Virus record (IMG/VR): IMGVR_UViG_3300037606_000477
Coordinates: 1-32,238 of that record
DNA: 32,238 bases
Source: a virus
Direction: 5' to 3' (one strand)
The translations under genes were made by a program, and so were the position numbers. Positions 20,276 to 29,634 of the stretch are shown here, piece after piece (positions within the stretch are counted from its first letter, which is position 1; every line of letters begins with the position of its first letter). The notes below the pieces were generated by a model, which saw only the letters and a program-made list of their open reading frames with translations, was not told the origin of the DNA and made no database searches.

Positions 20276-20348
20276 GCTTCGATAGCTCAGTTGGTAGAGC
20301 CCCTCATTTGTAATGAGGTGGTCGTAGGTTCGAATCCTATTCGAAGCT
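20276..20348 (+). tRNA. tRNA-Thr (UGU)
   Basis: Full cloverleaf: acceptor GCTTCGA/TCGAAGC (7 bp), D-arm GCTC/GAGC, anticodon stem CCTCA/TGAGG with loop TTTGTAA (anticodon TGT) and T-arm GTAGG-TTCGAAT-CCTAT (one G-U). The discriminator is T and no CCA is encoded. A 5-bp hairpin (20250-20254 with 20266-20270) lies just before it. It reads ACA, a common Thr codon in this AT-rich genome. The stretch 20157-20275 has no gene. Confidence 0.93.
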
Positions 20349-20464
20349 CTAAAATAACTGTCTTTTAATTAGGTGGTTAAAAAATTAATTCGTAAATTTG
20401 CTCGTTGGTTTAGTTGTGCCGTAAAACAACCATTAGAATTTAAAATAAAATGTTTATAAGTGAT

Positions 20465-20576
20465 AGCGACTACTTACAAACTAGACAAAGAAAGATATAA
20501 TAAGCTTTGAAAGCTCTTTAATTAAAAAATCCCTTTGTAGTCGCTTTAAAAGGGAATTTTTGATTTTAGGGCTTTC
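20465..20576 (+). promoter_or_regulatory. Pseudoknot-prone leader with terminator-like hairpin
   Basis: AGCGACTAC (20465-20473) is the exact complement of GTAGTCGCT (20537-20545). The latter lies in the loop of a hairpin TCCCTTT (20530-20536) with AAAGGGA (20549-20555), which is followed by a T run (20557-20561). In addition GAAAGCTCT (about 20509-20517) pairs with AGGGCTTTC (20568-20576). It ends 13 nt before the ATG at 20590, so it may act as an attenuator or riboswitch-like switch. A weak promoter (TAAATTTG at 20393-20400, with TAG instead of TTG at -33) lies upstream. Confidence 0.6.
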
Positions 20577-20589
20577 TGCATTTTATATT

Positions 20590-21423
20590 ATGAACAAAAA
20601 AGTTTACATTAATAACGCTGAGTATAATACTTTCTTCAACACACCTAATGTTGATTCAGATAAGTTATGCGCTGTTTTTACTCACTTACGTGGGAACAAG
20701 AACGGAAATCGCCGTTATTCACCTAAAGGTAAACTTAAACATTTCTCTCTTCTTAGAGAATTTACTGGAATGTCAAGACACGCAATTGAAACTTATGTAC
20801 CAATTTTAATAAATATTGGCGTTGTCACTTTAAACAGTGATGGTGGTGTTTCTGTTATGGGTTTTAACAGCACGTTTAAGAAGCTTAGAACGTCTGAAAC
20901 TCGTATAATACATATTCCAATTGAAATGTGTAAATCGTTCTTAAAAACGGCTGTAAGTGTTGGTTCAGTACGTATCAAAACAAATATTAGAAAACAGAAT
21001 AAACAAATAGACTTAAAGGAAACGCAGACTAAACTACTTAAAAAATATGTTTATCAGCAACAAAATCCTACAAAATCAATTCTGTCAAAGAAGGAAACTT
21101 CGGCGGTAGGTAAGATTATTGAAAGATTTGGTTCGATAAATGAATTCACTAAAGCTTATTGCGAAGAAGTTATCCTAAGTCAAAACGGATTTACTAACCT
21201 TAATGGGGGAGTAGATGGTAGATATTTTAAAAAACAGTTATTAGCAAGTGGATTTATAGAATCTAAAATCAGAACAGAAAAACTTACAAATGCAATTCAG
21301 TATCCAGAATACCTAAAGATTAAAACTACTATCATCAGTTCTGTTGGTAATGGTGTCTTTTGGTGCCCCTCTGATAAATGCGTCTATAAGTACTTAGCTA
21401 GTTCTTTGGTTTGGATTAAATAG
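20590..21423 (+). CDS. Winged-helix-like DNA-binding protein (replication or regulatory), 277 aa
   Basis: I start at the ATG at 20590; the longer frame from a TTG at 20560 would run through the leader hairpin. Residues ~10-95 suggest a winged helix: 'HFSLLREFTGMSRHAIETYVPILINIGVV' is a helix, turn, recognition helix and strand pattern, and 'LNSDGGVSVMG' would be the wing. The rest is basic and helical. RepA-like initiators and phage transcription factors share this layout. The structured leader implies separate control. The exact role is not determined. Confidence 0.72.
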   Translation: MNKKVYINNAEYNTFFNTPNVDSDKLCAVFTHLRGNKNGNRRYSPKGKLKHFSLLREFTGMSRHAIETYVPILINIGVVTLNSDGGVSVMGFNSTFKKLRTSETRIIHIPIEMCKSFLKTAVSVGSVRIKTNIRKQNKQIDLKETQTKLLKKYVYQQQNPTKSILSKKETSAVGKIIERFGSINEFTKAYCEEVILSQNGFTNLNGGVDGRYFKKQLLASGFIESKIRTEKLTNAIQYPEYLKIKTTIISSVGNGVFWCPSDKCVYKYLASSLVWIK

Positions 21424-21459
21424 GAATAGGGAAAAGAATTTTTTTTTAAGTAGTAGAGA

Positions 21460-21479
21460 ATTTTCAGCAAGTTGAAAAT
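21460..21479 (+). terminator. Weak hairpin after the winged-helix gene
   Basis: ATTTTCA (21460-21466) pairs with TGAAAAT (21473-21479), 7 bp with a 6-nt loop, after a T8 run following the stop. No U tract follows the stem, so it may be only a weak terminator, placed right before the next promoter. Confidence 0.4.
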
Positions 21480-21493
21480 AATATAAAATAAAT

Positions 21494-21524
21494 TTGCAAG
21501 ACAAAAATAAAAGAATTACATTTG
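21494..21524 (+). promoter_or_regulatory. Promoter for the small-gene operon
   Basis: TTG (21494-21496), 20 nt, TACATTTG (21517-21524), 22 nt before the ATG at 21547. Confidence 0.75.
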
Positions 21525-21546
21525 TATTGTAAAGAAAAAAAGAGAA

Positions 21547-21834
21547 ATGAAATATATAAGGGAGGGTTGGGCTCAATACTCAGAAAGGTTAAAATCATAT
21601 GATTACACTCAAGAGCAAATTGACGCAGTAAGAATAGTCAGAGAAGAAGCAGAACAAGTGCCAAACGAAATGTTTGACGAGCTTGTAAGACTAGGAGTAA
21701 TTGAGAGAACAAGAAAATTAAAGAAGAAAAGAAGTCTTTATGTCTTACAGGATGGGAAAATAGTATATCTTGAGCATTTTAACAAGCAACTGGAGTGGTG
21801 TGGATATTTTAAAGAGAGAGAAGATGGAGAATAG
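21547..21834 (+). CDS. Hypothetical protein, 95 aa
   Basis: Charged, helical N-terminal half (YTQEQIDAVRIVREEAEQVPNEMFDELVRLGVIERTRKLKKKRSLYVLQDGKIVYLE). 'MFDELVRLGVIERTR...LYVLQDGKIVYL' could be a small winged helix or a partner-binding fold. It starts behind its own promoter and overlaps the next gene by 11 nt. Family not recognised. Confidence 0.65.
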   Translation: MKYIREGWAQYSERLKSYDYTQEQIDAVRIVREEAEQVPNEMFDELVRLGVIERTRKLKKKRSLYVLQDGKIVYLEHFNKQLEWCGYFKEREDGE

Positions 21835-22039
21835 GTGTTATATGCTTGGTGAAGATGAATTCTTTGAAACATTTGAAGACCGTGTCTTTTATTTTGTTTT
21901 CGGCGAAAAAGAGATTAAAACAGGATTTTTAGAAAGCTTAAATCCAAATCAAAAATACAAAGAAGTAACAGAGAAAGAGTTAAGAAGAGAGATCAACATA
22001 AGATTACAGTACTTTACAAGAGATAAACTTGCACAGTAA
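21824..22039 (+). CDS. Hypothetical acidic protein, 71 aa
   Basis: The ATG at 21824 lies inside the end of the preceding gene and is preferred over a start at 21770, which would overlap it by 65 nt. Acidic and aromatic (FFETFEDRVFYFVFGEKEIK). The codons VFGEK contain the genome motif TTTTCGGCGAAA (21897-21908). Its 3' end carries the -33 box of the next promoter. Function unknown. Confidence 0.62.
   Translation: MENRCYMLGEDEFFETFEDRVFYFVFGEKEIKTGFLESLNPNQKYKEVTEKELRREINIRLQYFTRDKLAQ
21897..21908. repeat. Copy of the 12-bp motif TTTTCGGCGAAA
   Basis: Exact copy, inside the 71-aa gene, read as codons of Val-Phe-Gly-Glu-Lys. Other copies are at 343-354, 22169-22180 and 25861-25872. Confidence 0.6.
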
Positions 22040-22059
22040 TAATAAAAGAACTATCTTTA
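22029..22059 (+). promoter_or_regulatory. Promoter for 22.1-kb small genes
   Basis: TTG (22029-22031), 20 nt, TATCTTTA (22052-22059), 17 nt before the ATG at 22076. The -33 box overlaps the end of the 71-aa gene. The TTGCACAG start is identical to that of the PhoH-gene promoter at 27063. Confidence 0.72.
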
Positions 22060-22075
22060 CACAAAGAAACATAAG

Positions 22076-22273
22076 ATGACAATAGAACATTTATTAGAAG
22101 AGCATAAATTAGCCAAACTAGAAACTTGGGAACAATTAAACGAATTAAAACAGTTTGACACTTCTAAATTTTCGGCGAAAGAAAAAGAAGAAATAATATT
22201 ATCACTAATGGAACTTCAGATGGAATACTCTATGCGCTGTCTTTTTTTAAGTGAATTAGAAAGTTTATTATAA
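22076..22273 (+). CDS. Hypothetical protein, 65 aa
   Basis: Acidic, Leu-rich helical protein (EHLLEEHKLAKLETWEQLNELKQF...EEIILSLMELQMEYS), probably a helical hairpin or coiled-coil dimer. Contains a TTTTCGGCGAAA motif in codons for Phe-Ser-Ala-Lys. First gene behind its promoter; no family recognised. Confidence 0.65.
   Translation: MTIEHLLEEHKLAKLETWEQLNELKQFDTSKFSAKEKEEIILSLMELQMEYSMRCLFLSELESLL
22169..22180. repeat. Copy of the 12-bp motif TTTTCGGCGAAA
   Basis: Exact copy inside the 65-aa gene, in a different reading frame from the copy at 21897, so coding constraint does not explain both. Confidence 0.6.
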
Positions 22274-22284
22274 TATAGAATAAA

Positions 22285-22458
22285 ATGAAAGATCAATTTA
22301 TAATCGTTAACCTACACGACATGGACTACATGAAAGATAAAGAAGGTAAAATAATGTTCTTTGATACATTAAACGAAGCATGTGAAGTTTGCGGAATGTA
22401 TGAGTTTTCTGATGCTTGGGTAATGCAGTTAATGTATAACCATATTGAGAAGGATTAA
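22285..22458 (+). CDS. Small hypothetical protein, 57 aa
   Basis: ATG at 22285, 11 nt after the preceding stop; TAA at 22456. Sequence begins MKDQFIIVNLHDMDYMKDKE and continues with EACEVCGMYEFSDAW, a mixed alpha/beta small protein with a CxxC-like pair (C-E-V-C). Good spacing and normal composition support a real gene; function unknown. Confidence 0.6.
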   Translation: MKDQFIIVNLHDMDYMKDKEGKIMFFDTLNEACEVCGMYEFSDAWVMQLMYNHIEKD

Positions 22459-22469
22459 AAACAGAAATT

Positions 22470-22613
22470 ATGAAAACAAGACCAATAGAAATGGCTGAAC
22501 TAGAGATAATACTTTTAAGATTTAAAATAATGTTAGAGGAAGAACCTGATAGATACACCATTCAAGAGTTCATAGAACAAGAGGATTTTAGAAGAGATTT
22601 GTTTCCAAAGTGA
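22470..22613 (+). CDS. Small hypothetical protein, 47 aa
   Basis: ATG at 22470, TGA at 22611 overlapping the GTG of the next gene. Begins MKTRPIEMAELEIILLRFKI and ends EFIEQEDFRRDLFPK: acidic and helical. Tight coupling (GTGA overlap) with the next gene supports translation. No family known to me. Confidence 0.58.
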   Translation: MKTRPIEMAELEIILLRFKIMLEEEPDRYTIQEFIEQEDFRRDLFPK

Positions 22614-22981
22614 AAGAATCTAAAATAATTATAAAACAGTTCTCTGATAAATCTTCTAATTTTTGGGTAGACTTCGCACACTACTCTCTAAATGAAAATA
22701 AAGAAATAATTTGGTGTTCGGGCGAATCCGCCACAAAAGAAAAAATAGAGTTTTTAGAGGCATATATAAAAAGAAACAACAAAGTATTCAAAGAAAGAGA
22801 GAAAGTAGCTGAGATTAAAGATTATGATGCTCTATTTACGTTTGGTAAGCATATTAATACTAAAGTCGGAGATGTGTTTCTAAAAGATGCGACGTATTTA
22901 AAGTGGGCAAGGGATAATTACATTTTTAAGTCGGGCGAAGAAAAGTTAAAAGAACAGATTATAAAGGTATTGGGAAAATAA
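22610..22981 (+). CDS. ExoX C-terminal-like domain protein, 123 aa
   Basis: Starts at GTG in a GTGA overlap with the preceding gene. The N-terminal ~65 residues are mixed alpha/beta. The C-terminal part, 'LFTFGKHINTKVGDVFLKDATYLKWARDNY', matches the short F-G-K-x-x-x-x-x-x-x-V/I-x-x-x-D-x-x-Y-L-x-W module found at the end of exodeoxyribonuclease X and as stand-alone proteins in phages. No nuclease acidic triad was seen, so it is probably a nucleic-acid-binding accessory rather than an exonuclease. Confidence 0.7.
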   Translation: MKESKIIIKQFSDKSSNFWVDFAHYSLNENKEIIWCSGESATKEKIEFLEAYIKRNNKVFKEREKVAEIKDYDALFTFGKHINTKVGDVFLKDATYLKWARDNYIFKSGEEKLKEQIIKVLGK

Positions 22982-22990
22982 AAATTATAT

Positions 22991-23125
22991 ATGGAAATCA
23001 AACCATTAGACTTAAAACTATCAGAAGATATAAAGAGAATGTTAGAAATGCAAAAGTACGTTGAAAAACTTTGGGAAACTCATTTTTCAAAATACGTAGA
23101 GATAATTTCGGAGAAAAAGAAATAA
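22991..23125 (+). CDS. Small hypothetical protein, 44 aa
   Basis: ATG at 22991, TAA at 23123. Begins MEIKPLDLKLSEDIKRMLEM, single charged helix with Trp and His in the middle and a Lys-rich end. It fits the gene spacing of this operon (9 nt after the previous stop, 12 nt before the next start). Function unknown. Confidence 0.5.
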   Translation: MEIKPLDLKLSEDIKRMLEMQKYVEKLWETHFSKYVEIISEKKK

Positions 23126-23137
23126 AAACAGAAGAAA

Positions 23138-23383
23138 ATGAGTGCACAAACATTTAAATTAACATTAGGCAGTGAATACTTTGTAAACACAAATCTAAAA
23201 GATCAAGTAAAGCAAAGATATTTAAAAGTAGTGTCAGAACTAAAACATATTTACTACAAATGGTACCACAAATTATTAAATAAATTAACTTTAGGTTGCA
23301 GTTTTAAGGAGGCTTGGGTACATACTGTGGAAAGTATACCTGTAAAAATAGAATGGGGTTTAGGAAGTTTTGGTAAAAGATAG
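23138..23383 (+). CDS. Hypothetical protein, 81 aa
   Basis: Basic, mostly helical (VKQRYLKVVSELKHIYYKWYHKLLNKLTLG) with a C-terminal strand-rich part (ESIPVKIEWGLGSFGKR). No signal peptide or Cys cluster. It precedes the NinG-like nuclease; a DNA-binding partner is possible. Family not recognised. Confidence 0.62.
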   Translation: MSAQTFKLTLGSEYFVNTNLKDQVKQRYLKVVSELKHIYYKWYHKLLNKLTLGCSFKEAWVHTVESIPVKIEWGLGSFGKR

Positions 23384-23393
23384 ATATAAAATA

Positions 23394-23831
23394 GTGAAGA
23401 AATATAAAAAATTAGATTATAACACAAAAGATTTAGAAAGTTTGAGTACTTCCGATTTAAAAAAAGTTTGTGATTATTCTTTAAGACACTACTTATTAGC
23501 TAACCAAGAGTCAACTTATTATTTTTGCCCACTAAAAGAAAAAAACTATTCTACTGATAAGATGCATGTAGCCCATTTTTATGATAGAGGTATAATGTCA
23601 ACTCGTTATGATTTAAATAATTGCCACTTAATTTCAAGTCAATCTAATACGTGGGATTCTCAAATTCCAAAAGAAGGTTACAAGTCTCTACACCATTATG
23701 AATATGAAATATGGTTACATCAAAAATTAGGTGAAAAAAAGTTTAAAGAATTGTTGTGTAACTCAAAAAAATTGATTACATTTGCAAAAGAAGATTATAT
23801 AAAGCTAATTAAAAAGTTTAGAGATGAGTAA
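23394..23831 (+). CDS. NinG-like HNH-type endonuclease, about 145 aa
   Basis: The core 'KMHVAHFYDRGIMSTRYDLNNCHLISSQSNTWDSQIPKE' follows the lambda NinG/Rap pattern: H-x-x-H-F followed by R-x-D-x-x-N-x-H-x-x-C/S-x-x-x-N. NinG cleaves recombination intermediates in lambda. Here only one Cys is upstream (FCPLKEK), and the usual second zinc Cys in x-x-C is replaced by Ser (ISSQ), so zinc binding may differ. The start is GTG at 23394 or TTG at 23370; there is no ATG. The neighbouring RecA-type gene fits a recombination module. Confidence 0.72.
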   Translation: MKKYKKLDYNTKDLESLSTSDLKKVCDYSLRHYLLANQESTYYFCPLKEKNYSTDKMHVAHFYDRGIMSTRYDLNNCHLISSQSNTWDSQIPKEGYKSLHHYEYEIWLHQKLGEKKFKELLCNSKKLITFAKEDYIKLIKKFRDE

Positions 23832-24240
23832 TGAATCACACCCTTTTCATAAATTAATGTCTTTTGTTGAAGAGTATAATGAAAATAGAGAAAGCTTCAA
23901 TATGGAAAAGCTACAGTTAATGAGAGAAGATATTGCAATTAATCTTCTTTTACTTTCTGACAGTGTTAGTCAAACTATTGCTAACGCAGAAAGTAAAGAC
24001 TATGATAGAAAACGATTTTATGCACAAAGAGAAGAACATTATAGAAATGAAATAGATGAAAGAACAGGTAAAAATCACAATGTAGCTGATTCAGAGAGAT
24101 TAGCGAGATTAGATGCTAAAGAGATTGATGAAGCTTGCGCTTTTGCATATAAACAAAAAGAGAGGGCGAGGTTAACAGTCATAGCTATTCAACAAATCTT
24201 GAACTCAATTAGCGGACGAATTTCTAATTACAGTAAATAA
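23824..24240 (+). CDS. Hypothetical protein of the recombination module, 138 aa
   Basis: Helical, highly charged and acidic (FNMEKLQLMREDIAINLLLLSDSVSQTIANAESKDYDRKR...) with a second helical part rich in Arg and Glu. It overlaps the NinG-like gene by 8 nt, and the next gene starts at its stop (TAATG). A near-consensus promoter lies inside the NinG gene (TTG 23754, TACATTTG at 23776-23783, 19-nt spacer). Possibly a recombination mediator or structural helix protein; not recognised. Confidence 0.65.
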   Translation: MSNESHPFHKLMSFVEEYNENRESFNMEKLQLMREDIAINLLLLSDSVSQTIANAESKDYDRKRFYAQREEHYRNEIDERTGKNHNVADSERLARLDAKEIDEACAFAYKQKERARLTVIAIQQILNSISGRISNYSK

Positions 24241-24560
24241 TGTATCATCAACAAAAAAATCACTCCCAATTTAAAGAGGAGTTTTTTAATAAAAGCACAA
24301 AATTTTCCGAAAAAACCCTACGATTTATAACAGAATACGAAAATGTCAAAAAGCACTTATTGGTAGAATTTGAGGACTACGTATATAAAATAACCCCTAA
24401 TAATTTATTTAAAGGTAAGGATCTGAATATAATGTATTTGTTAAATAAAGAAAAGTATATAGAAAAAGAACTTCTAAAGTTAGGTATAAACTTAAAAATC
24501 GTAGAAGCGATAATATTTAAGAAAATAATAGATATAAATAATGGCGAAGAAATTAATTAA
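24240..24560 (+). CDS. Hypothetical protein, 106 aa
   Basis: Lys-rich helical protein (FKEEFFNKSTKFSEKTLRFITEYENVKKHLLVEFEDYVYKI) with a basic, Ile-rich C-terminus (KIVEAIIFKKIIDINN). Starts in a TAATG overlap and itself overlaps the RecA gene start by 20 nt, so translation is coupled. No known motif. Confidence 0.65.
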   Translation: MYHQQKNHSQFKEEFFNKSTKFSEKTLRFITEYENVKKHLLVEFEDYVYKITPNNLFKGKDLNIMYLLNKEKYIEKELLKLGINLKIVEAIIFKKIIDINNGEEIN

Positions 24561-25542
24561 AGACGGAGAAGAAGAATTAACAGCAATTGAAAAAATGTAT
24601 TTAAAGTATAATAAGACTGAAAATATATTTAACCCACCAACAGTAGATTTAGGGGATATTGATGTTTCAGTAGAACGATTAAAAAATCCCTTTCTATCAT
24701 TTGATAGGTATTTAGGTGGAGGCCCCGCTTACGGAAAAATTACAACTTACTCGGCTTTTGCCTCTTGTGGTAAAACTTCTTTGGCCTTAGCTTTTGCGGG
24801 AGTAAATAAAGATAAAGTTATTGGTTTTTGTGATAATGAGTTTAATTGGAGCGATTCTTCTTACATATGGATTGACAAGTACTTTGGTATAGAAAAGGAA
24901 AGAATACATGTACTACAACCAACATATCTTGAGGAAGGTGCAGAAATGGTTGAAGATTTATGTAATGTAGCAGATATTGTTATTTTTGATGGGTTTGATT
25001 CACTTGCCCCTAAAGCAGAATATCAAGCAACAATGGAAGAAATGCAAATGGGGCTTCAAGCTCGAGCATATAAAAAATTCTTCAGAAAAACAATGGGTAA
25101 AATATATAAAAGCAAAGCATCACTTGTAGTCACAAATCATTTATATGAAAATATTGGAAATGTATTTGAGCCTTTTAAAGAACCAGGTGGTAGAGCGATA
25201 CATGATTTTGCAAGTCAGAAATTATACCTTACTAGAAGTAACACAAAAGACAAAGAAAAACAAACTGTAGGACAAGATGTAAACGTAACAGTTAATAAGG
25301 ATAAATTATCAGGGCATAGAGGAGCAAAGTTTTCACTACCTTATAATAATAGAACAGGCTTTGATATAGAAATGGATATTTTAAATAATGCATTAGATTT
25401 AAAAATAGTCCAACAGACAGGGGCTTGGTATGCTTATGATGGCACAAAAATTGGTCAAGGTAAGGATAATGCAAGAGACACATTGAAAGATAATCCTGAA
25501 TTAATGTTAGAAATAGCTAACCTCTGTAGAGAAAAATTTTAA
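24541..25542 (+). CDS. RecA/UvsX-type recombinase, 333 aa
   Basis: Strand-exchange ATPase. The P-loop is A71-F-A-S-C-G-K-T78, of the [AG]xxxxGK[ST] type but with Ala in place of the common Gly-Pro-Glu-Ser start. The following 'GFCDNEFNW' (near 95) provides the catalytic Glu. Walker B is 'DIVIFDGFDSLAPK'. The L2-like loop is 'PFKEPGGRAIHDFASQKLYL'. The C-terminus 'GAWYAYDGTKIGQGKDNARDTL' is a close RecA match. Length is similar to bacterial RecA (352 aa in E. coli). It works with the SSB at 30140 and probably the nearby NinG-like gene in recombination-dependent replication. Identity is clear; host versus phage ancestry would need a tree. Confidence 0.93.
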   Translation: MAKKLIKDGEEELTAIEKMYLKYNKTENIFNPPTVDLGDIDVSVERLKNPFLSFDRYLGGGPAYGKITTYSAFASCGKTSLALAFAGVNKDKVIGFCDNEFNWSDSSYIWIDKYFGIEKERIHVLQPTYLEEGAEMVEDLCNVADIVIFDGFDSLAPKAEYQATMEEMQMGLQARAYKKFFRKTMGKIYKSKASLVVTNHLYENIGNVFEPFKEPGGRAIHDFASQKLYLTRSNTKDKEKQTVGQDVNVTVNKDKLSGHRGAKFSLPYNNRTGFDIEMDILNNALDLKIVQQTGAWYAYDGTKIGQGKDNARDTLKDNPELMLEIANLCREKF

Positions 25543-25570
25543 TATAGAAGCGTAACAAAAAAGCAAAAAA

Positions 25571-25653
25571 AGGTTCGTAGTAGCTTCCCACCAAACCAAG
25601 AACCTCGAAAAACTCACTAGAAATAAGGAGAGTTGTTAGGGTGGGAATTTTTT
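25571..25653 (+). ncRNA. Compact pseudoknotted RNA ending in a terminator
   Basis: TTCCCACC (25585-25592) pairs with GGTGGGAA (25640-25647) and a T6 run follows (25648-25653), a good intrinsic terminator. AGGTTC (25571-25576), which lies before it, pairs with GAACCT (25600-25605) inside its loop, giving a pseudoknot. A third stem, AACTC (25611-25615) with GAGTT (25630-25634), is nested inside. It lies between recA and the 59-aa gene, so it may terminate the recA transcript, regulate the next gene or be a small RNA. Confidence 0.6.
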
Positions 25654-25675
25654 AAATAAATAAAACAAAAAAATT

Positions 25676-25855
25676 ATGAAAAAATTACTATTATTCCTCT
25701 TAGAGGTAACAGGAGAAATTTCAGTCCAAAAAACTGGAGAAAAGGCTTTAAAAAGTGGTTTGTATAGAAGTGGTAAGCAAGTAATTCCATTAGCTAAGTC
25801 AGAACGGTTTCCACCTAGTGAGGATAATGTTTGGAATTTAGTTGTTTCTGTTTAA
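25676..25855 (+). CDS. Small hypothetical protein, 59 aa
   Basis: ATG at 25676, TAA at 25853. Begins MKKLLLFLLEVTGEISVQKT, ending in SERFPPSEDNVWNLVVSV. The C-terminal stretch 'YRSGKQVIPLAKSERFPPS' resembles a Y-x-S-G-x-x-I-P-L-x-K-x-E-x-F-P-P motif I recall in small Bacteroidetes-phage proteins. The N-terminus is hydrophobic but too short for a clear membrane anchor. It lies just after the pseudoknotted RNA and before a TTTTCGGCGAAA copy. Function unknown. Confidence 0.62.
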   Translation: MKKLLLFLLEVTGEISVQKTGEKALKSGLYRSGKQVIPLAKSERFPPSEDNVWNLVVSV

Positions 25856-25860
25856 TCCTT

Positions 25861-25872
25861 TTTTCGGCGAAA
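25861..25872. repeat. Intergenic copy of TTTTCGGCGAAA
   Basis: The only copy of this 12-mer outside genes, in the 34-bp gap before the membrane-protein gene at 25890. With flanks it becomes TTTTTCGGCGAAAAA, a 6-bp stem with a 3-nt loop. Confidence 0.62.
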
Positions 25873-25889
25873 AATAAAAAAACAACAAA

Positions 25890-26273
25890 ATGACAAACGT
25901 AATTTATATTTACTTTATAATTAATGCTTTTATAGCAGGATACACCTATAAAGATACCTATAGTTGGGAAACTAAGTTAACTTCTATTTCATACACTTTT
26001 TTTGCTTTGCTAGTAGGAATACCATTTTATATAATATTATTTATTATTAATGCCTCTGCTCCGATATTAGGATGGACTCATATAGAGATCAAATTTCAAT
26101 ACAGATTTCATTTTACGAAATATTGGGATAAAATACTTTTAGACGATAATTATTCTCCGATATACAAAACATTAGAAGATAAATTAGAAAGGGCTGAGAA
26201 ACTTACGAGAGGTAGTTCAAAACAAGTGAGAAGGCACAATAAAAAAGTAAAAAATAGATATGAAAAACTTTAA
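25890..26273 (+). CDS. Membrane protein, 127 aa
   Basis: Two hydrophobic segments are visible, about residues 4-20 (VIYIYFIINAFIAGYTY) and 33-57 (YTFFALLVGIPFYIILFIIN), followed by a basic, charged tail (TRGSSKQVRRHNKKVKNRYEKL) probably on the cytoplasmic side. It overlaps the next small gene by 14 nt. It may alter the host membrane or anchor replication; not a lysis gene by position. No family recognised. Confidence 0.7.
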   Translation: MTNVIYIYFIINAFIAGYTYKDTYSWETKLTSISYTFFALLVGIPFYIILFIINASAPILGWTHIEIKFQYRFHFTKYWDKILLDDNYSPIYKTLEDKLERAEKLTRGSSKQVRRHNKKVKNRYEKL

Positions 26274-26418: not shown

Positions 26419-26837
26419 AAAAGAAAGAAACCGTAGAATGGACTTATAATAATATTATAGTAGATAACATTTTAAAAACACCTGAAGGTTCCCTAGCATT
26501 CATTTACAAGATATCTTTACTTGATGGCACAGGTCGTTATTATTATGGCCGTAAAACTATGTGGAAGCCACGCTATACGAGCGGTAAAAATAAAGGAATA
26601 AGTAAGGGGTTGTATGTTTGGCGAACTTACTGTGGTTCATCAAAGGAACTTACGGAATTAATCAAGGGTAATACACCTTACAAAAAAGAAATACTCAAAT
26701 TCTGTTTCTCAAAAGCAGAAACAAGTTATGAAGAAACTAAACAAATACTTTGTGGGGGAGGTTTGACAGACCCTCTATGTTTGAATTTTTGGATAAAAAG
26801 TTTGATTTACTCTAAACATTTAGAACCAAATAGTTAA
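26409..26837 (+). CDS. Probable GIY-YIG-like nuclease, 142 aa
   Basis: The layout fits GIY-YIG domains: 'AFIYKISLLDGTGRYYYGRKTMW' has Y-x-x-x...Y-Y-Y-G-R-K in place of GIY...YIG, then 'YCGSSKELTELI' and 'KKEILKFCFSKAETSYEETKQIL' with a conserved Glu position. A basic loop (KPRYTSGKNKGISKG) is inserted between them. The C-terminus has a Cys (ILCGGGLTDPLCLN). It could be a repair, restriction or DNA-processing nuclease of the early module, or a small homing remnant. The assignment is pattern-based. Confidence 0.6.
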   Translation: MAVKKKETVEWTYNNIIVDNILKTPEGSLAFIYKISLLDGTGRYYYGRKTMWKPRYTSGKNKGISKGLYVWRTYCGSSKELTELIKGNTPYKKEILKFCFSKAETSYEETKQILCGGGLTDPLCLNFWIKSLIYSKHLEPNS

Positions 26838-26862
26838 ATTTCCGCAAAAAAAATAAATAAAA

Positions 26863-27036
26863 ATGACAGAAGAACAGTATTTAATAATGGTAGGAATAAG
26901 AAGTATTGAGTATTCATATACAGATGAAGAGTTATTCAATAACTTGGAATACTTTAAAAAGTGTCACAGACGAGGATTAAGTGCATATAAAGCATTACTT
27001 TTTCTGTTTGATGAGTGGAGTTTTCCATCGGATTAA
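26863..27036 (+). CDS. Small hypothetical protein, 57 aa
   Basis: ATG at 26863, TAA at 27034. Begins MTEEQYLIMVGIRSIEYSYT and ends LFLFDEWSFPSD. Acidic helical protein. It is flanked by similar spacers AATTTCCG(C)AAAAA (about 26839 and 27035). Function unknown. Confidence 0.58.
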   Translation: MTEEQYLIMVGIRSIEYSYTDEELFNNLEYFKKCHRRGLSAYKALLFLFDEWSFPSD

Positions 27037-27114: not shown

Positions 27115-27762
27115 ATGAAAGAACCGAACAGAGTTAGAAAATCAGAGATTAAGTATAATTTACAATTAAACGAAGAGCAAAAAGAAGCTAAAAGACTAAT
27201 TTTAGATAACCAGATTGTAATAATTACTGGGCGTGCGGGATCGGGGAAAAGTTTGGTGGGAGCTATCACAGCTTTAGATTTTTTAAGTACAAAACAATGT
27301 GATAAAATTTTAGTTACGAGAATTGCAATAGAAGTAGGAAAATCATTGGGTTATCTTCCTGGAAATTTAGATGACAAATTTAATGTGTATATCGAAGCAC
27401 TACTAGAAAATTTATACAAGTGTGCAGATAAGTCTAAAATAGACGAGTTTGTGAAAGATGGTAAGATACAAGGATTACCTGTCCAATATATTAGAGGTAA
27501 GACAATTGATGATGTTTTATTAGTTGAAGAGGCTCAAAACTTAACAGCAAAAGAGATGGAAGCAATTTTATGTAGATTAGGTAAAACAGGTAAGATAGTA
27601 ATTAATGGAGATCAAGCTCAGCGTGATATAACAGAAACTTACACAGGATTAGATTTTGCAATTGAGTTATCTAAAAATATTAAAGGTATAAATCATATCA
27701 AACTTAAAGAAAACCATAGGAGTGGATTAGTTGGAGAAATTTTAGATTATATTTATAAATAA
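27115..27762 (+). CDS. phoH: PhoH-like ATPase, 215 aa
   Basis: P-loop G39-R-A-G-S-G-K-S46, Walker B region 'VLLVEEAQN' (134-142), 'VINGDQAQRDI' and the C-terminal 'ENHRSGLVGEILDYI' (199-213) give the PhoH/SF1-helicase-like fold. PhoH-like genes are common in phages and may act in RNA processing or phosphate stress; the phage role is unclear. The single-domain form is shorter than the host version (~300 aa). It is transcribed from its own promoter, and its stop directly precedes the promoter of the non-coding RNA locus. Confidence 0.88.
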   Translation: MKEPNRVRKSEIKYNLQLNEEQKEAKRLILDNQIVIITGRAGSGKSLVGAITALDFLSTKQCDKILVTRIAIEVGKSLGYLPGNLDDKFNVYIEALLENLYKCADKSKIDEFVKDGKIQGLPVQYIRGKTIDDVLLVEEAQNLTAKEMEAILCRLGKTGKIVINGDQAQRDITETYTGLDFAIELSKNIKGINHIKLKENHRSGLVGEILDYIYK

Positions 27763-27764
27763 AT

Positions 27765-27795
27765 TTGTAAGTTAAAAAGTAAAGTTGTATATTTG
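27765..27795 (+). promoter_or_regulatory. Promoter of the 1.1-kb non-coding RNA locus
   Basis: TTG (27765-27767), 20 nt, TATATTTG (27788-27795). No protein gene follows for over 1.1 kb, so this promoter should make RNA that is not translated in its first part. It starts 3 nt after the phoH stop. Confidence 0.78.
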
Positions 27796-27799
27796 TAGA

Positions 27800-28011
27800 A
27801 GATAAAAACAAGCTGAAATACAAGACGTAGCATTAGATGTAGAATTGACTTTGAAACAAAAGGTTGTCTAATGTTATAACTCTTAAACCAATAAAGAGTG
27901 TGTTCTTGTGATAGGAAGTAGTAAGTAAGTGCTCCATTGATATCAGGGTTGAGGAGCTCCTGAATTATTTTCAACGGTTGGAATGTTGACTTGTTTTTTA
28001 TCTTTTTTTTT
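27800..28011 (+). ncRNA. Structured RNA, first segment of the non-coding locus
   Basis: Begins where the promoter predicts and ends in a T-rich terminator: TCAAC (27971-27975) with GTTGA (27985-27989), then TTGTTTTTT and T9 (to 28011). Other stems are CATTAGA (27831-27837) with TCTAATG (27867-27873), ACTCTT (27879-27884) with AAGAGT (27894-27899), and a small pseudoknot of GCTCC (27931-27935) with GGAGC (27953-27957) and TCAGG (27943-27947) with CCTGA (27959-27963). No ORF was found. It may be a ~210-nt sRNA or the 5' domain of a longer RNA. Confidence 0.6.
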
Positions 28012-28081
28012 GCGGAAAATTAAAATAAGTAAATACGAACCTTCTTTGGTGGAAGACAGACACATAATATGAATTTATTAT

Positions 28082-28215
28082 TCTCGGTAGAGAGTTCAAG
28101 ATGAAATTGCTTGTAAGAAGTTTTACTTAAATATCGGTTACATCTCCTCGAATAGTATTCTTGGACTGACCCACGTTGCTTGTTTAACCGAGAGTGTCAA
28201 GTGGGTTTATTTTTT
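28082..28215 (+). ncRNA. Pseudoknotted terminator RNA, second segment
   Basis: GACCCAC (28168-28174) pairs with GTGGGTT (28201-28207, one G-U), followed by TTTATTTTTT, a good terminator. Its 26-nt loop holds ACCGAGA (28187-28193), the exact complement of TCTCGGT (28082-28088) 80 nt upstream. An AT-rich hairpin ATAATA/TATTAT (about 28066-28080) precedes it. No ORF and no consensus promoter directly in front, so it likely belongs to the RNA started at 27800. Confidence 0.6.
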
Positions 28216-28314
28216 GGAGTAAAAGGGTTGTGTGATGATTTTAGGTAGGCTAGGACAAACTAGATGGCTAATGATATGTAGCTTAACACTGGGGGTTCGA
28301 TTCCACCTGCTCCA
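28215..28314 (+). tRNA. tRNA-like module with enlarged interior
   Basis: TGGAGTA (28215-28221) pairs with TGCTCCA (28308-28314) as a 7-bp acceptor-type stem. A T-arm GGGGG-TTCGATT-CCACC (28291-28307, one mismatch) abuts the acceptor 3' strand exactly as in tRNA. The interior (~69 nt) is too long for D plus anticodon arms and shows other hairpins (CTAG at 28250 with 28260; GGCTA 28266-28270 with TAGCT 28279-28283). No anticodon can be named. It could be a tRNA with an insertion or a tRNA-like end of a larger RNA. Confidence 0.45.
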
Positions 28315-28322
28315 CAAAACAG

Positions 28323-28363
28323 ACCACAAGAGGAGTGACAAACAGTAAGGGTTTGTAAGTGGT
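28323..28363 (+). ncRNA. Two-tier hairpin between tRNA-like modules
   Basis: ACCAC (28323-28327) with GTGGT (28359-28363) encloses ACAAAC (28338-28343) with GTTTGT (28351-28356). It sits between the modules at 28215 and 28370 and is part of the same RNA locus. Confidence 0.5.
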
Positions 28364-28369
28364 AAAGTT

Positions 28370-28440
28370 TAGTCAATAGCTCAATTGGATAGAGTGGGGG
28401 ATAAAACTCAGGGATATTGGTTCGAGCCCAATTTGACTAC
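28370..28440 (+). tRNA. tRNA-like gene with abnormal anticodon arm
   Basis: Acceptor TAGTCAA (28370-28376) with TTGACTA (28433-28439), D-arm GCTC-AATTGGATA-GAGT, and a perfect T-arm ATTGG-TTCGAGC-CCAAT. Between D-arm and T-arm only 20 nt remain (28396-28415) instead of the usual 22-23, and no regular 5-bp anticodon stem with a U33 loop forms. It is tRNA by three arms but no amino acid can be assigned; it may be decayed or work as a tRNA mimic. Confidence 0.55.
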
Positions 28441-28544
28441 CTATTCCAATCCTAAGGAAACAAATAAAAGGAGAGATTAAAGTTGTTCTCACAAGACAAC
28501 CGTTGGCAGAAAGACGTGAAAGATTCTGTGACTAATAGGAATAG
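28441..28544 (+). ncRNA. Closed structured domain in the RNA locus
   Basis: CTATTCC (28441-28447) pairs with GGAATAG (28538-28544), directly next to the preceding tRNA-like module. Inside are GTTGT (28482-28486) with ACAAC (28496-28500) and CAGAA (28507-28511) with TTCTG (28524-28528). No T-loop and no ORF. Confidence 0.5.
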
Positions 28545-28555
28545 ACTATTCTTAA

Positions 28556-28761
28556 TTCGTGATGGTGTAATTGGAAGGCACGCCTAAAGTTAAGTCGGTA
28601 GGTGGTAAGGGCAATAAGAGGAGTGTAATGATAAGTGGGAGTAATTAACCACTGAACTGCCAAAGTTAACTATTATTACAAATTAAAATGACCTAAAAGT
28701 AGAAGCAAGAAGTACGTATTACTTGTGAAAGCTCCGTGTAGGTTCGAGTCCTACTCACGAA
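28556..28761 (+). tRNA. tRNA scaffold interrupted by ~130 nt of structured RNA
   Basis: Acceptor TTCGTGA (28556-28562) with TCACGAA (28755-28761), D-arm GTGT-AATTGGAAG-GCAC (28565-28581, with A14 and GG in the loop) and a perfect T-arm GTAGG-TTCGAGT-CCTAC (28738-28754) are all tRNA-like. The anticodon region is replaced by ~150 nt. That insert folds on its own: TGTAATGATA (28624-28633) with TATTATTACA (28671-28680, one G-U) stacks on AGTGG (28634-28638) with CCACT (28649-28653), and AAGTA (28710-28714) pairs with TACTT (28720-28724). The exon boundaries and anticodon could not be fixed. It is too small for a usual group I intron. Confidence 0.5.
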
Positions 28762-28762
28762 A

Positions 28763-28850
28763 CACTAGTTGCTTAATTTGAACATAAAAAGTAACAGGCA
28801 TTGTAGAGTTCAATCTAGTGAATGTTAAGTCTTAATCACGCAGAATTAAG
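28763..28850 (+). ncRNA. Last structured segment of the RNA locus
   Basis: CACTAG (28763-28768) pairs with CTAGTG (28815-28820) around a 46-nt interior, and CTTAAT (28831-28836) pairs with ATTAAG (28845-28850). There is a GTTCAATC T-loop-like string near 28808 but no proper T-stem. No ORF. Confidence 0.45.
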
Positions 28851-28890
28851 GAGAGTACTTAAGGTAGGCATGTGCCAAACTCTCATTTTT
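28851..28890 (+). terminator. Terminator of the non-coding locus
   Basis: GAGAGT (28851-28856) pairs with ACTCTC (28879-28884), with an inner GGCA/TGCC stem (28867-28876), followed by ATTTTT. It separates the RNA locus from the genes that begin at 28914. Confidence 0.6.
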
Positions 28891-28913
28891 AAAAAACATA
28901 TACATTTACAATT

Positions 28914-29069
28914 ATGAAAATTTCAGGAAATGGCTTTACTTACTTTGTAGAAAATAAAGAAGTTAAAAGTTTTGAAGAGTGGGAAAGATTAACAAAAAAT
29001 GGAGATTGGATAACTAAAGTTAAAGACTTAGAATTAAGAACAACTAAAATTAAAAGTAATGGAGAATAA
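28914..29069 (+). CDS. Small hypothetical protein, 51 aa
   Basis: ATG at 28914, TAA at 29067. Begins MKISGNGFTYFVENKEVKSF and ends LRTTKIKSNGE; small, basic, alpha/beta. It overlaps the next gene by 11 nt (ATGGAGAATAA). A weak -7 (TACATTTA, 28901-28908) lacks a proper -33, so expression may come from read-through. Confidence 0.6.
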   Translation: MKISGNGFTYFVENKEVKSFEEWERLTKNGDWITKVKDLELRTTKIKSNGE

Positions 29070-29634
29070 TGCTAGGCATTTTATTGGTAACGTTGAAGTA
29101 GATAAAGAGGATATTAAAAATTGTACAACTAGTGCCACAAAAAAGAGTGGAAAGTCTATAAGTACAACTATGTTTCTTGATGAGGTATTAAGTGAGTTAT
29201 TTTCAGATTGTAATAATACAAGAAAAAAAGATAACAAGTATAATGAAAAAAATTGGGGAGTACTAAAAAATAACTTTAAAGGTTCTGTTTTTGAAACAAC
29301 AGAGCATCCACTAAAAGAAACAAAGGGTGTTAAATATAATGATGGTAAATTACCTCTAGATATTATGCTAACAAGACAGTTCCCAAAAGCTTTAAATGCA
29401 GTGTGTCAAGCAACTATGTTTGGACACAATAAGTATAAAGATACAGATGTCGATTTTTTAAATTTTAAAAAAGTATTAGGGGGGAGTCAAACTTATGCGG
29501 ATGCTTTACAAAGACACAGTGTTGACAAAAGTGTAATAGATTTAGACAGTGGATTGCCTCACATCTTTCATAAATGCTGGAATGCATTAGCAGAACTTGA
29601 ATTATGGATTGAAGAAAATAAATTTGCACATTAA
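29059..29634 (+). CDS. dATP/dGTP diphosphohydrolase-like (MazG-related fold), 191 aa
   Basis: From about residue 90: 'GVKYNDGKLPLDIMLTRQFPKALNAVCQATMFGHNKYK', then 'GGSQTYADALQRHSVD' and 'DSGLPHIFHKCWNALAELELWIEE'. This is the phage dATP/dGTP diphosphohydrolase N-terminal-domain pattern (N-D-x-K-L-P at the start, a G-x-x-K-Y mid-motif, and H-x-x-x-x-W-N-A-L-x-x-L-E-L helices). Such enzymes remove dGTP/dATP or related nucleotides to adjust pools. The first ~90 residues are a separate polar, Lys-rich part with no recognised domain. The promoter for the next operon overlaps its 3' end. Confidence 0.8.
   Translation: MENNARHFIGNVEVDKEDIKNCTTSATKKSGKSISTTMFLDEVLSELFSDCNNTRKKDNKYNEKNWGVLKNNFKGSVFETTEHPLKETKGVKYNDGKLPLDIMLTRQFPKALNAVCQATMFGHNKYKDTDVDFLNFKKVLGGSQTYADALQRHSVDKSVIDLDSGLPHIFHKCWNALAELELWIEENKFAH

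Follow-up and report, generated by a model that had tools for sequence, protein, structure and literature searches.

The closest precedent for the locus described here is found in phage T4, whose tRNA region gives rise to RNAC and RNAD, a pair of small RNAs with no known function (PMC3014915, PMC9697503). We likewise propose that small RNAs arise from a phage tRNA region, although phage and host differ. In contrast to T4, some of the neighboring tRNAs lack an anticodon or are oversized, and the main small RNA, here called motif C, is supported by covariation. Two further non-coding RNAs of phages, GOLLD (RF02032) and ROOL (RF03087), are also located near tRNA islands. In GOLLD the 3' region is conserved and the 5' region varies, the linker may contain tRNAs, and one member lies downstream of a tRNA-Met (PMC12286853). 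Compared with both, motif C is far smaller and the locus breaks into separate units. In organellar tRNA punctuation and in case of mascRNA at MALAT1, tRNAs or tRNA-like elements are RNase P/RNase Z cutting signals that release neighboring RNAs; those are different organisms, and comparable cutting is a proposal for the locus described here.

The window, meaning the whole stretch of DNA analyzed, is a 32-kb virus contig (32,238 nt). The structural proteins it encodes, terminase and portal among them, have matches in the Cellulophaga phages phi17:2 and phi4:1 (Lightbulbvirus, ca. 145 kb; terminase identity 39%), and a much closer match is the 146-kb metagenomic contig G001 (terminase identity 78%). 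We consider the window phage to be of Bacteroidetes type. In phi17:2 and phi4:1 a tRNA array likewise lies on that side of the structural genes and shows the same kind of abnormally spaced T-arm/acceptor pairs, one with a nested tRNA, but most of their tRNAs are canonical and neither motif C nor a PhoH match was found.

The RNA locus lies between a phoH-like gene and a 51-aa ORF at 28914, which has a weak homolog at the equivalent position in G001. An earlier note on this DNA had proposed a consensus promoter at 27765 to 27795 and a stretch lacking any good plus-strand ORF, and both claims hold. The promoter has the Bacteroidetes -33/-7 layout, is identically placed downstream of phoH in L004 to L007 (the four closest phoH relatives) and in G001, where an RNA region follows in each case, and stands at the head of the RNA unit in a further contig, L159. 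Additional copies occur elsewhere in the window. The longest plus-strand ORF inside the region does not exceed 38 aa, and no support was found for a 73-aa minus-strand ORF. The features are, in order:

27115 to 27762, plus strand: PhoH-like ATPase, upstream syntenic anchor (PHROG 170, E 2.8e-52; relatives)
27765 to 27795, plus strand: Bacteroidetes-type promoter, TTG-N20-TATATTTG (pattern and position; copies in relatives)
27796 to 28012, plus strand: RNA1, a rod of ca. 210 nt ended by a U-run at 28001 to 28011 (MFE z = -3.5)
28134 to 28215, plus strand: pseudoknot-terminator RNA (homologs in L004 and L162)
28215 to 28315, plus strand: tRNA-A, oversized and tRNA-like (acceptor TGGAGTA/TGCTCCA, T-arm GGGGGTTCGATTCCACC)
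28323 to 28363, plus strand: spacer hairpin ACCAC/GTGGT with inner ACAAAC/GTTTGT (sequence; fold z = -1.3, not significant)
28370 to 28440, plus strand: tRNA-B (Rfam RF00005, 36.5 bits; ARAGORN 'tRNA-???')
28441 to 28544, plus strand: spacer RNA closed by CTATTCC/GGAATAG (sequence; fold z = -1.4, not significant)
28556 to 28762, plus strand: tRNA-C, oversized and tRNA-like, 207 nt (ARAGORN with inserts allowed; T-arm/acceptor scan)
28764 to 28885, plus strand: motif C, structured RNA of 122 nt (alignment A1, covariation, covariance model R1)
28886 to 28890, plus strand: U-run TTTTT, probable operon end (directly after motif C in the window and L006; T-rich in L007)

Closing stems noted previously are correctly placed at 28215/28314, 28323/28363, 28370/28439, 28441/28544 and 28556/28761, and the proposed terminators correspond to U-runs behind stems at 28001 to 28011, 28206 to 28215 and 28886 to 28890. 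None of these three was detected in a generic terminator scan because their stems have long loops. The description of the locus as 'packed' with RNA structure did not survive comparison with chance. Mean folding z for 120-nt windows against shuffled sequence was +0.23 on the plus strand of 27800 to 28890 (-0.25 and -0.19 for the flanking genes), and the 27 exact 7-bp inverted repeats compare with 19.4 +/- 5.4 in shuffles, 24 of 300 of which reached that count. Inferring dense structure from stem counts is not safe. The only thermodynamic outlier is the first unit (27795 to 28005, z = -3.5).

This first unit, RNA1, is closed by a stem at 27800 to 27812/27990 to 28002, its 5' strand beginning at the expected start site and its 3' strand ending in the U-run. 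A similarly closed first RNA follows the promoter in L005, L006, L007, L159 and probably G001, conserved in layout and hardly in sequence. The second unit combines helix S1 (TCGGTT 28134 to 28139/AACCGA 28186 to 28191), hairpin GAATAGTATTC at 28150 to 28160 and helix S2 (CCCAC 28170 to 28174/GTGGG 28201 to 28205), followed by its U-run at 28206 to 28215. Across the window, L004 and L162, the S1 core CGGT/ACCG is constant while S2 differs but stays paired, reading GAGAGGC/GCCTCTC in L004 and CCTAC/GTAGG in L162. In L004 this RNA comes first after the promoter, and in L162 it stands by itself.

The hairpin motif GRATAGTATTCTTDGRCTGA of the pseudoknot RNA occurs in 20 viral contigs and, in those inspected, mostly follows a capsid-type gene; the weak matches L092 to L099, L098 excepted, were left out of counts. 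In L098, L164 to L166, L169, L174 and L178, which belong to a different phage group, it stands directly behind an apparent capsid gene and is followed by a strong terminator. Separately, GCGGAAAATTAA or CGCCGAAAA often comes after the U-run that ends a unit and forms a recurring tail in this phage group (window 28001 to 28020 and, on the minus strand, 26834 to 26863; L162, L004, L159).

Domains 28215 to 28314, 28370 to 28440 and 28556 to 28761 are tRNA-A, tRNA-B and tRNA-C; three of the six domain-closing stems in the earlier note are thus tRNA acceptor stems, which bears out its remark that GOLLD and ROOL RNAs are often near or fused with tRNA genes. We scanned for a GTTC(A/G)A T-arm followed by a 7-nt strand with an upstream acceptor partner and observed four pairs in the window against 0.075 expected per shuffled window, the fourth being a normal tRNA-Thr at 20276. 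All three elements have the acceptor stem and T-arm of a tRNA (RF00005), but in none of them was a 5-bp anticodon stem recognized that carries a 7-nt loop with U33. Of the three, Rfam and a standard ARAGORN run detect tRNA-B alone. Its acceptor (7/7), D- and T-arms (5/5) are good, while the anticodon stem is broken and no anticodon can be assigned. In tRNA-A the acceptor pairs at 7/7, with one G-U, across 76 nt and the T-arm at 4/5; U8 is absent, and a region of ca. 69 nt stands where no D or anticodon arm could be recognized. It was also considered as a tmRNA and rejected, as its RF00023 alignment scores 7.6 bits, below the 47-bit gathering score, and ARAGORN calls no tmRNA. The largest element, tRNA-C, matches the strict scan (0 matches in shuffles) with acceptor TTCGTGA/TCACGAA (7/7), D-arm GTGTAATTGGAAGGCAC and T-arm GTAGGTTCGAGTCCTAC (5/5), and carries ca. 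134 extra nt between D-arm and T-arm. Its anticodon region is either a 4-bp stem with a 12-nt loop or an insert, and ARAGORN models the whole as a tRNA with a 128-nt insert. The 28441 to 28544 spacer RNA directly follows tRNA-B and ends 11 nt upstream of tRNA-C. More T-arm/acceptor pairs at abnormal spacing, including a tRNA nested in a tRNA in phi17:2, were found in related phages, so that odd tRNA-like genes are a habit of the phage group.

The phi17:2 case (NC_021798) consists of the annotated tRNA-Ile at 142711 to 142783, flanked by the acceptor, D-arm and T-arm halves of an outer tRNA (L157:34650-34830, ca. 142650 to 142830). Seven Cellulophaga phage records are 100% identical at this site and its conservation is thus uninformative. 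Large tRNA arrays occur in G008 (71081 to 77596, 18 ARAGORN tRNAs) and G010 (20420 to 26079, 23 tRNAs), where the spacers are long and free of ORFs and contain additional T-arms not assigned to any tRNA; motif C is absent from the fragments searched.

Motif C closes the locus. From alignment A1, which comprises six divergent sequences (window, L004 to L007 and L159, all metagenomic contigs), RNAalifold proposes five helices:

ca. 28768 to 28773/28790 to 28795, plus strand: helix 1
28799 to 28802/28821 to 28824, plus strand: helix 2
28804 to 28806/28816 to 28818, plus strand: helix 3
ca. 28831 to 28850, plus strand: helix 4, a hairpin with ACGCA loop
28851 to 28855/28880 to 28884, plus strand: helix 5

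Paired cells amount to 89% compared with 69% in shuffles, a fraction partly given by construction since the structure was derived from the tested alignment; two-sided changes are the stronger evidence and occur in at least one sequence at 17 of 25 pairs. Covariation is 0.635 versus 0.223 in shuffles, matched by 0 of 500, and stays at or below 0.232 in every version in which the structure is slid along the alignment. The last helix is 100% paired, with two-sided changes at all five pairs. Judged by this alignment, motif C is a conserved structured RNA in six phages. Together with the retained pseudoknot helices at 28134 to 28215 and the T-arm/acceptor statistics, its covariation upholds the earlier view of the region as structured non-coding RNA with a promoter of its own.

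Covariance model R1 scores the window copy at 83.8 bits and finds one syntenic copy in each motif-C-bearing genome; no others were found in 1.3 Mb that included G001 and phi17:2 fragments. There is no match in Rfam 15, permissive thresholds included, and motif C is a previously uncatalogued RNA family in this sense. Pattern scans of viral contigs added L159 only. Another viral candidate, L182, was rejected as coding-type sequence with no model match. All eight inspected bacterial matches to the degenerate pattern lie inside ORFs, and the best bacterial candidate (L192, 22 bits) was taken as chance. Motif C was also compared by eye with RNase P, group I intron and hammerhead, all of which were dropped, with no model match.

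In all six phages motif C adjoins a tRNA, a tRNA-like element or a tRNA 5' half on one side or the other, with gaps of 0 to 6 nt. In the window, L006 and L007 the 3' end of a tRNA or tRNA-like element lies 0 to 2 nt upstream of its start and a T-rich run comes after it, whereas in L004 and L005 it ends 4 to 6 nt before a tRNA-Met with no T-run after it. In L159, a tRNA 5' half directly follows motif C and is interrupted by a homing endonuclease ORF. The neighbor is a canonical tRNA-Met in L006 and an oversized element with a perfect acceptor stem in the window (207 nt) and in L007, where a 182-nt counterpart takes the position of tRNA-C. On the reverse strand of L159 (ca. 730 to 1360), the interrupting ORF is HNH endonuclease-like and a T-arm lies after it.

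Homology of the region was found through synteny behind phoH, because a whole-region DNA search of phage records and 50 related records gave nothing beyond short matches to the promoter, to terminator tails and to low-complexity sequence. Across relatives we distinguish at least four kinds of unit (RNA1, pseudoknot RNA, tRNA or tRNA-like elements, motif C), and they occur singly and in changed order. G001, the nearest relative by terminase, has neither motif C nor tRNAs at this place; the module is therefore dispensable or exchanged with phoH.

We propose, with a probability of roughly 55%, that the locus is an operon without protein genes, driven by its own promoter, in which separate small structured RNAs alternate with tRNAs and tRNA-like elements and are processed by punctuation. 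Transcription would start near 27800, and RNA1 and the pseudoknot RNA would each be an end point for part of the transcripts. Transcripts that read through would be cleaved at the tRNAs and tRNA-like elements, the enzymes being host RNase P and tRNA 3'-end nucleases, which are expected to recognize acceptor and T-arm. Having lost a usable anticodon arm and kept the parts relevant for processing, tRNA-A, tRNA-B and tRNA-C may function chiefly as cutting signals; that they retain acceptor and T-arms but not the anticodon arm is in line with elements maintained for their processing role. RNase P cleavage of tRNA-A is not certain, since U8 and the D-arm are absent. Cuts would release stable small RNAs, motif C above all, whose 3' end may be made by termination in the window and by RNase P where a tRNA comes next. 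Punctuation predicts such an arrangement, as motif C adjoins a tRNA-type element in 6/6 cases and takes its 3' end from either a T-rich run or a tRNA: a T-rich run is present when motif C comes last (window, L006, L007) and absent when a tRNA follows (L004, L005, L159). The internal U-runs, the independent occurrence of units in relatives, the covariation of motif C, the excess of T-arm/acceptor pairs over chance, the oversized element that replaces the tRNA-Met of L006 in the window and L007, and the Northern blot reported in PMC9697503 also count in favor. For motif C we consider a role in trans most likely, either as a small RNA of the phage or as an RNA that binds protein. Doubt about the operon mostly concerns the mechanism and less the inventory. 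The promoter, the units with their borders, the covariation of motif C and its tRNA-type neighbor are observed directly.

The anticodon-less tRNAs could simply be decaying. Ordinary decay, in which a phage tRNA array turns into pseudogenes separated by spacers without function while the tRNA set shrinks from one related phage to another, would account for the broken anticodon stem of tRNA-B, for the strikes on tRNAs in relatives by a homing endonuclease (L159) and a nested insertion (phi17:2), and for ARAGORN tRNA numbers in relatives ranging from none to about 23. Decay alone does not predict acceptor stems at 7/7 in all three elements despite loss of the anticodon arm, and the strong covariation of motif C and the oversized element at the equivalent place in L007 also speak against it; we consider it rather doubtful.

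The earlier note favored one large ornate RNA of the GOLLD or ROOL kind. A single GOLLD-type molecule, with a variable 5' half, tRNAs in the linker and motif C as the conserved 3' domain, would explain the similar order of parts, but is unlikely. GOLLD is one continuous RNA, often longer than 800 nt, whereas two internal U-run terminators and units that occur singly or reordered in relatives argue for separate RNAs here, and there is no global folding excess. Motif C has 122 nt against 416 model positions and precedes the tRNA in three phages while following it in three. The Rfam search proposed previously listed no GOLLD/ROOL-type family in 27600 to 29100 at E up to 5, and permissive Rfam searches of the region and its relatives gave tRNA and chance matches only. 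Neither the GOLLD (RF02032) nor the ROOL (RF03087) model matched ten phage records at E up to 10, where the GOLLD control scored below cut-off and the ROOL control search was silent. By these searches, motif C is not GOLLD.

Defenses that cleave tRNAs in the anticodon loop are known in general. The elements might be decoys, tRNA-like RNAs whose altered anticodon loops sequester or escape anticodon nucleases of the host or other defenses directed at tRNAs, and the concentration of aberrations in the anticodon arm is in line with this. We found no recognizable nuclease target site and motif C would be left unexplained, making this quite unlikely. Very unlikely is a role of motif C on its adjoining tRNA, e.g. 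as a tRNA-processing ribozyme or tRNA-sensing RNA with the anticodon-less elements as evolved partners; if true, this would be a previously undescribed class of tRNA-linked functional RNA. Least probable by our estimate are intron-bearing or trans-processed genes spliced into working tRNAs, in keeping with the ARAGORN fit of tRNA-C with a 128-nt insert and the nested tRNA in phi17:2, but opposed by joining that gives no evident normal anticodon stem with U33 in its loop, by the lack of an Rfam group I intron match (window at gathering scores; 27600 to 29100 at E up to 5), and by a search for splicing enzymes, which in the records covered found no RtcB, and an Rnl1-type RNA ligase in G006 only (the window being a fragment).

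If the operon with punctuation is correct, tRNA genes of these phages, once adaptors, would now mark the cuts by which a conserved small RNA is freed, having given up the anticodon arm and retained acceptor and T-arm. Motif C adds a covarying RNA family absent from Rfam to the few phage RNAs of tRNA clusters (T4 RNAC/RNAD, GOLLD, ROOL), the function of all of which is unknown, and its small size and strict neighborhood make the role of such RNAs easier to test.

Two further observations concern the window outside the locus. The protein encoded at 29059 to 29634 matches PHROG 5033 ('endolysin; inhibits RNA polymerase') but also PHROG 801 (dATP/dGTP pyrophosphohydrolase), and its naming as endolysin is questionable. 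A possible attenuator lies at 20430 to 20590, in the leader of an ORF that starts near 20590: it contains AGCGACTAC/GTAGTCGCT and, overlapping with it, a TCCCTTT/AAAGGGA stem that has a T-run; L162 has the same layout in other letters (GTGACTGA/TCAGTCAC and TTAATTACCC/GGGTAGTTAA).
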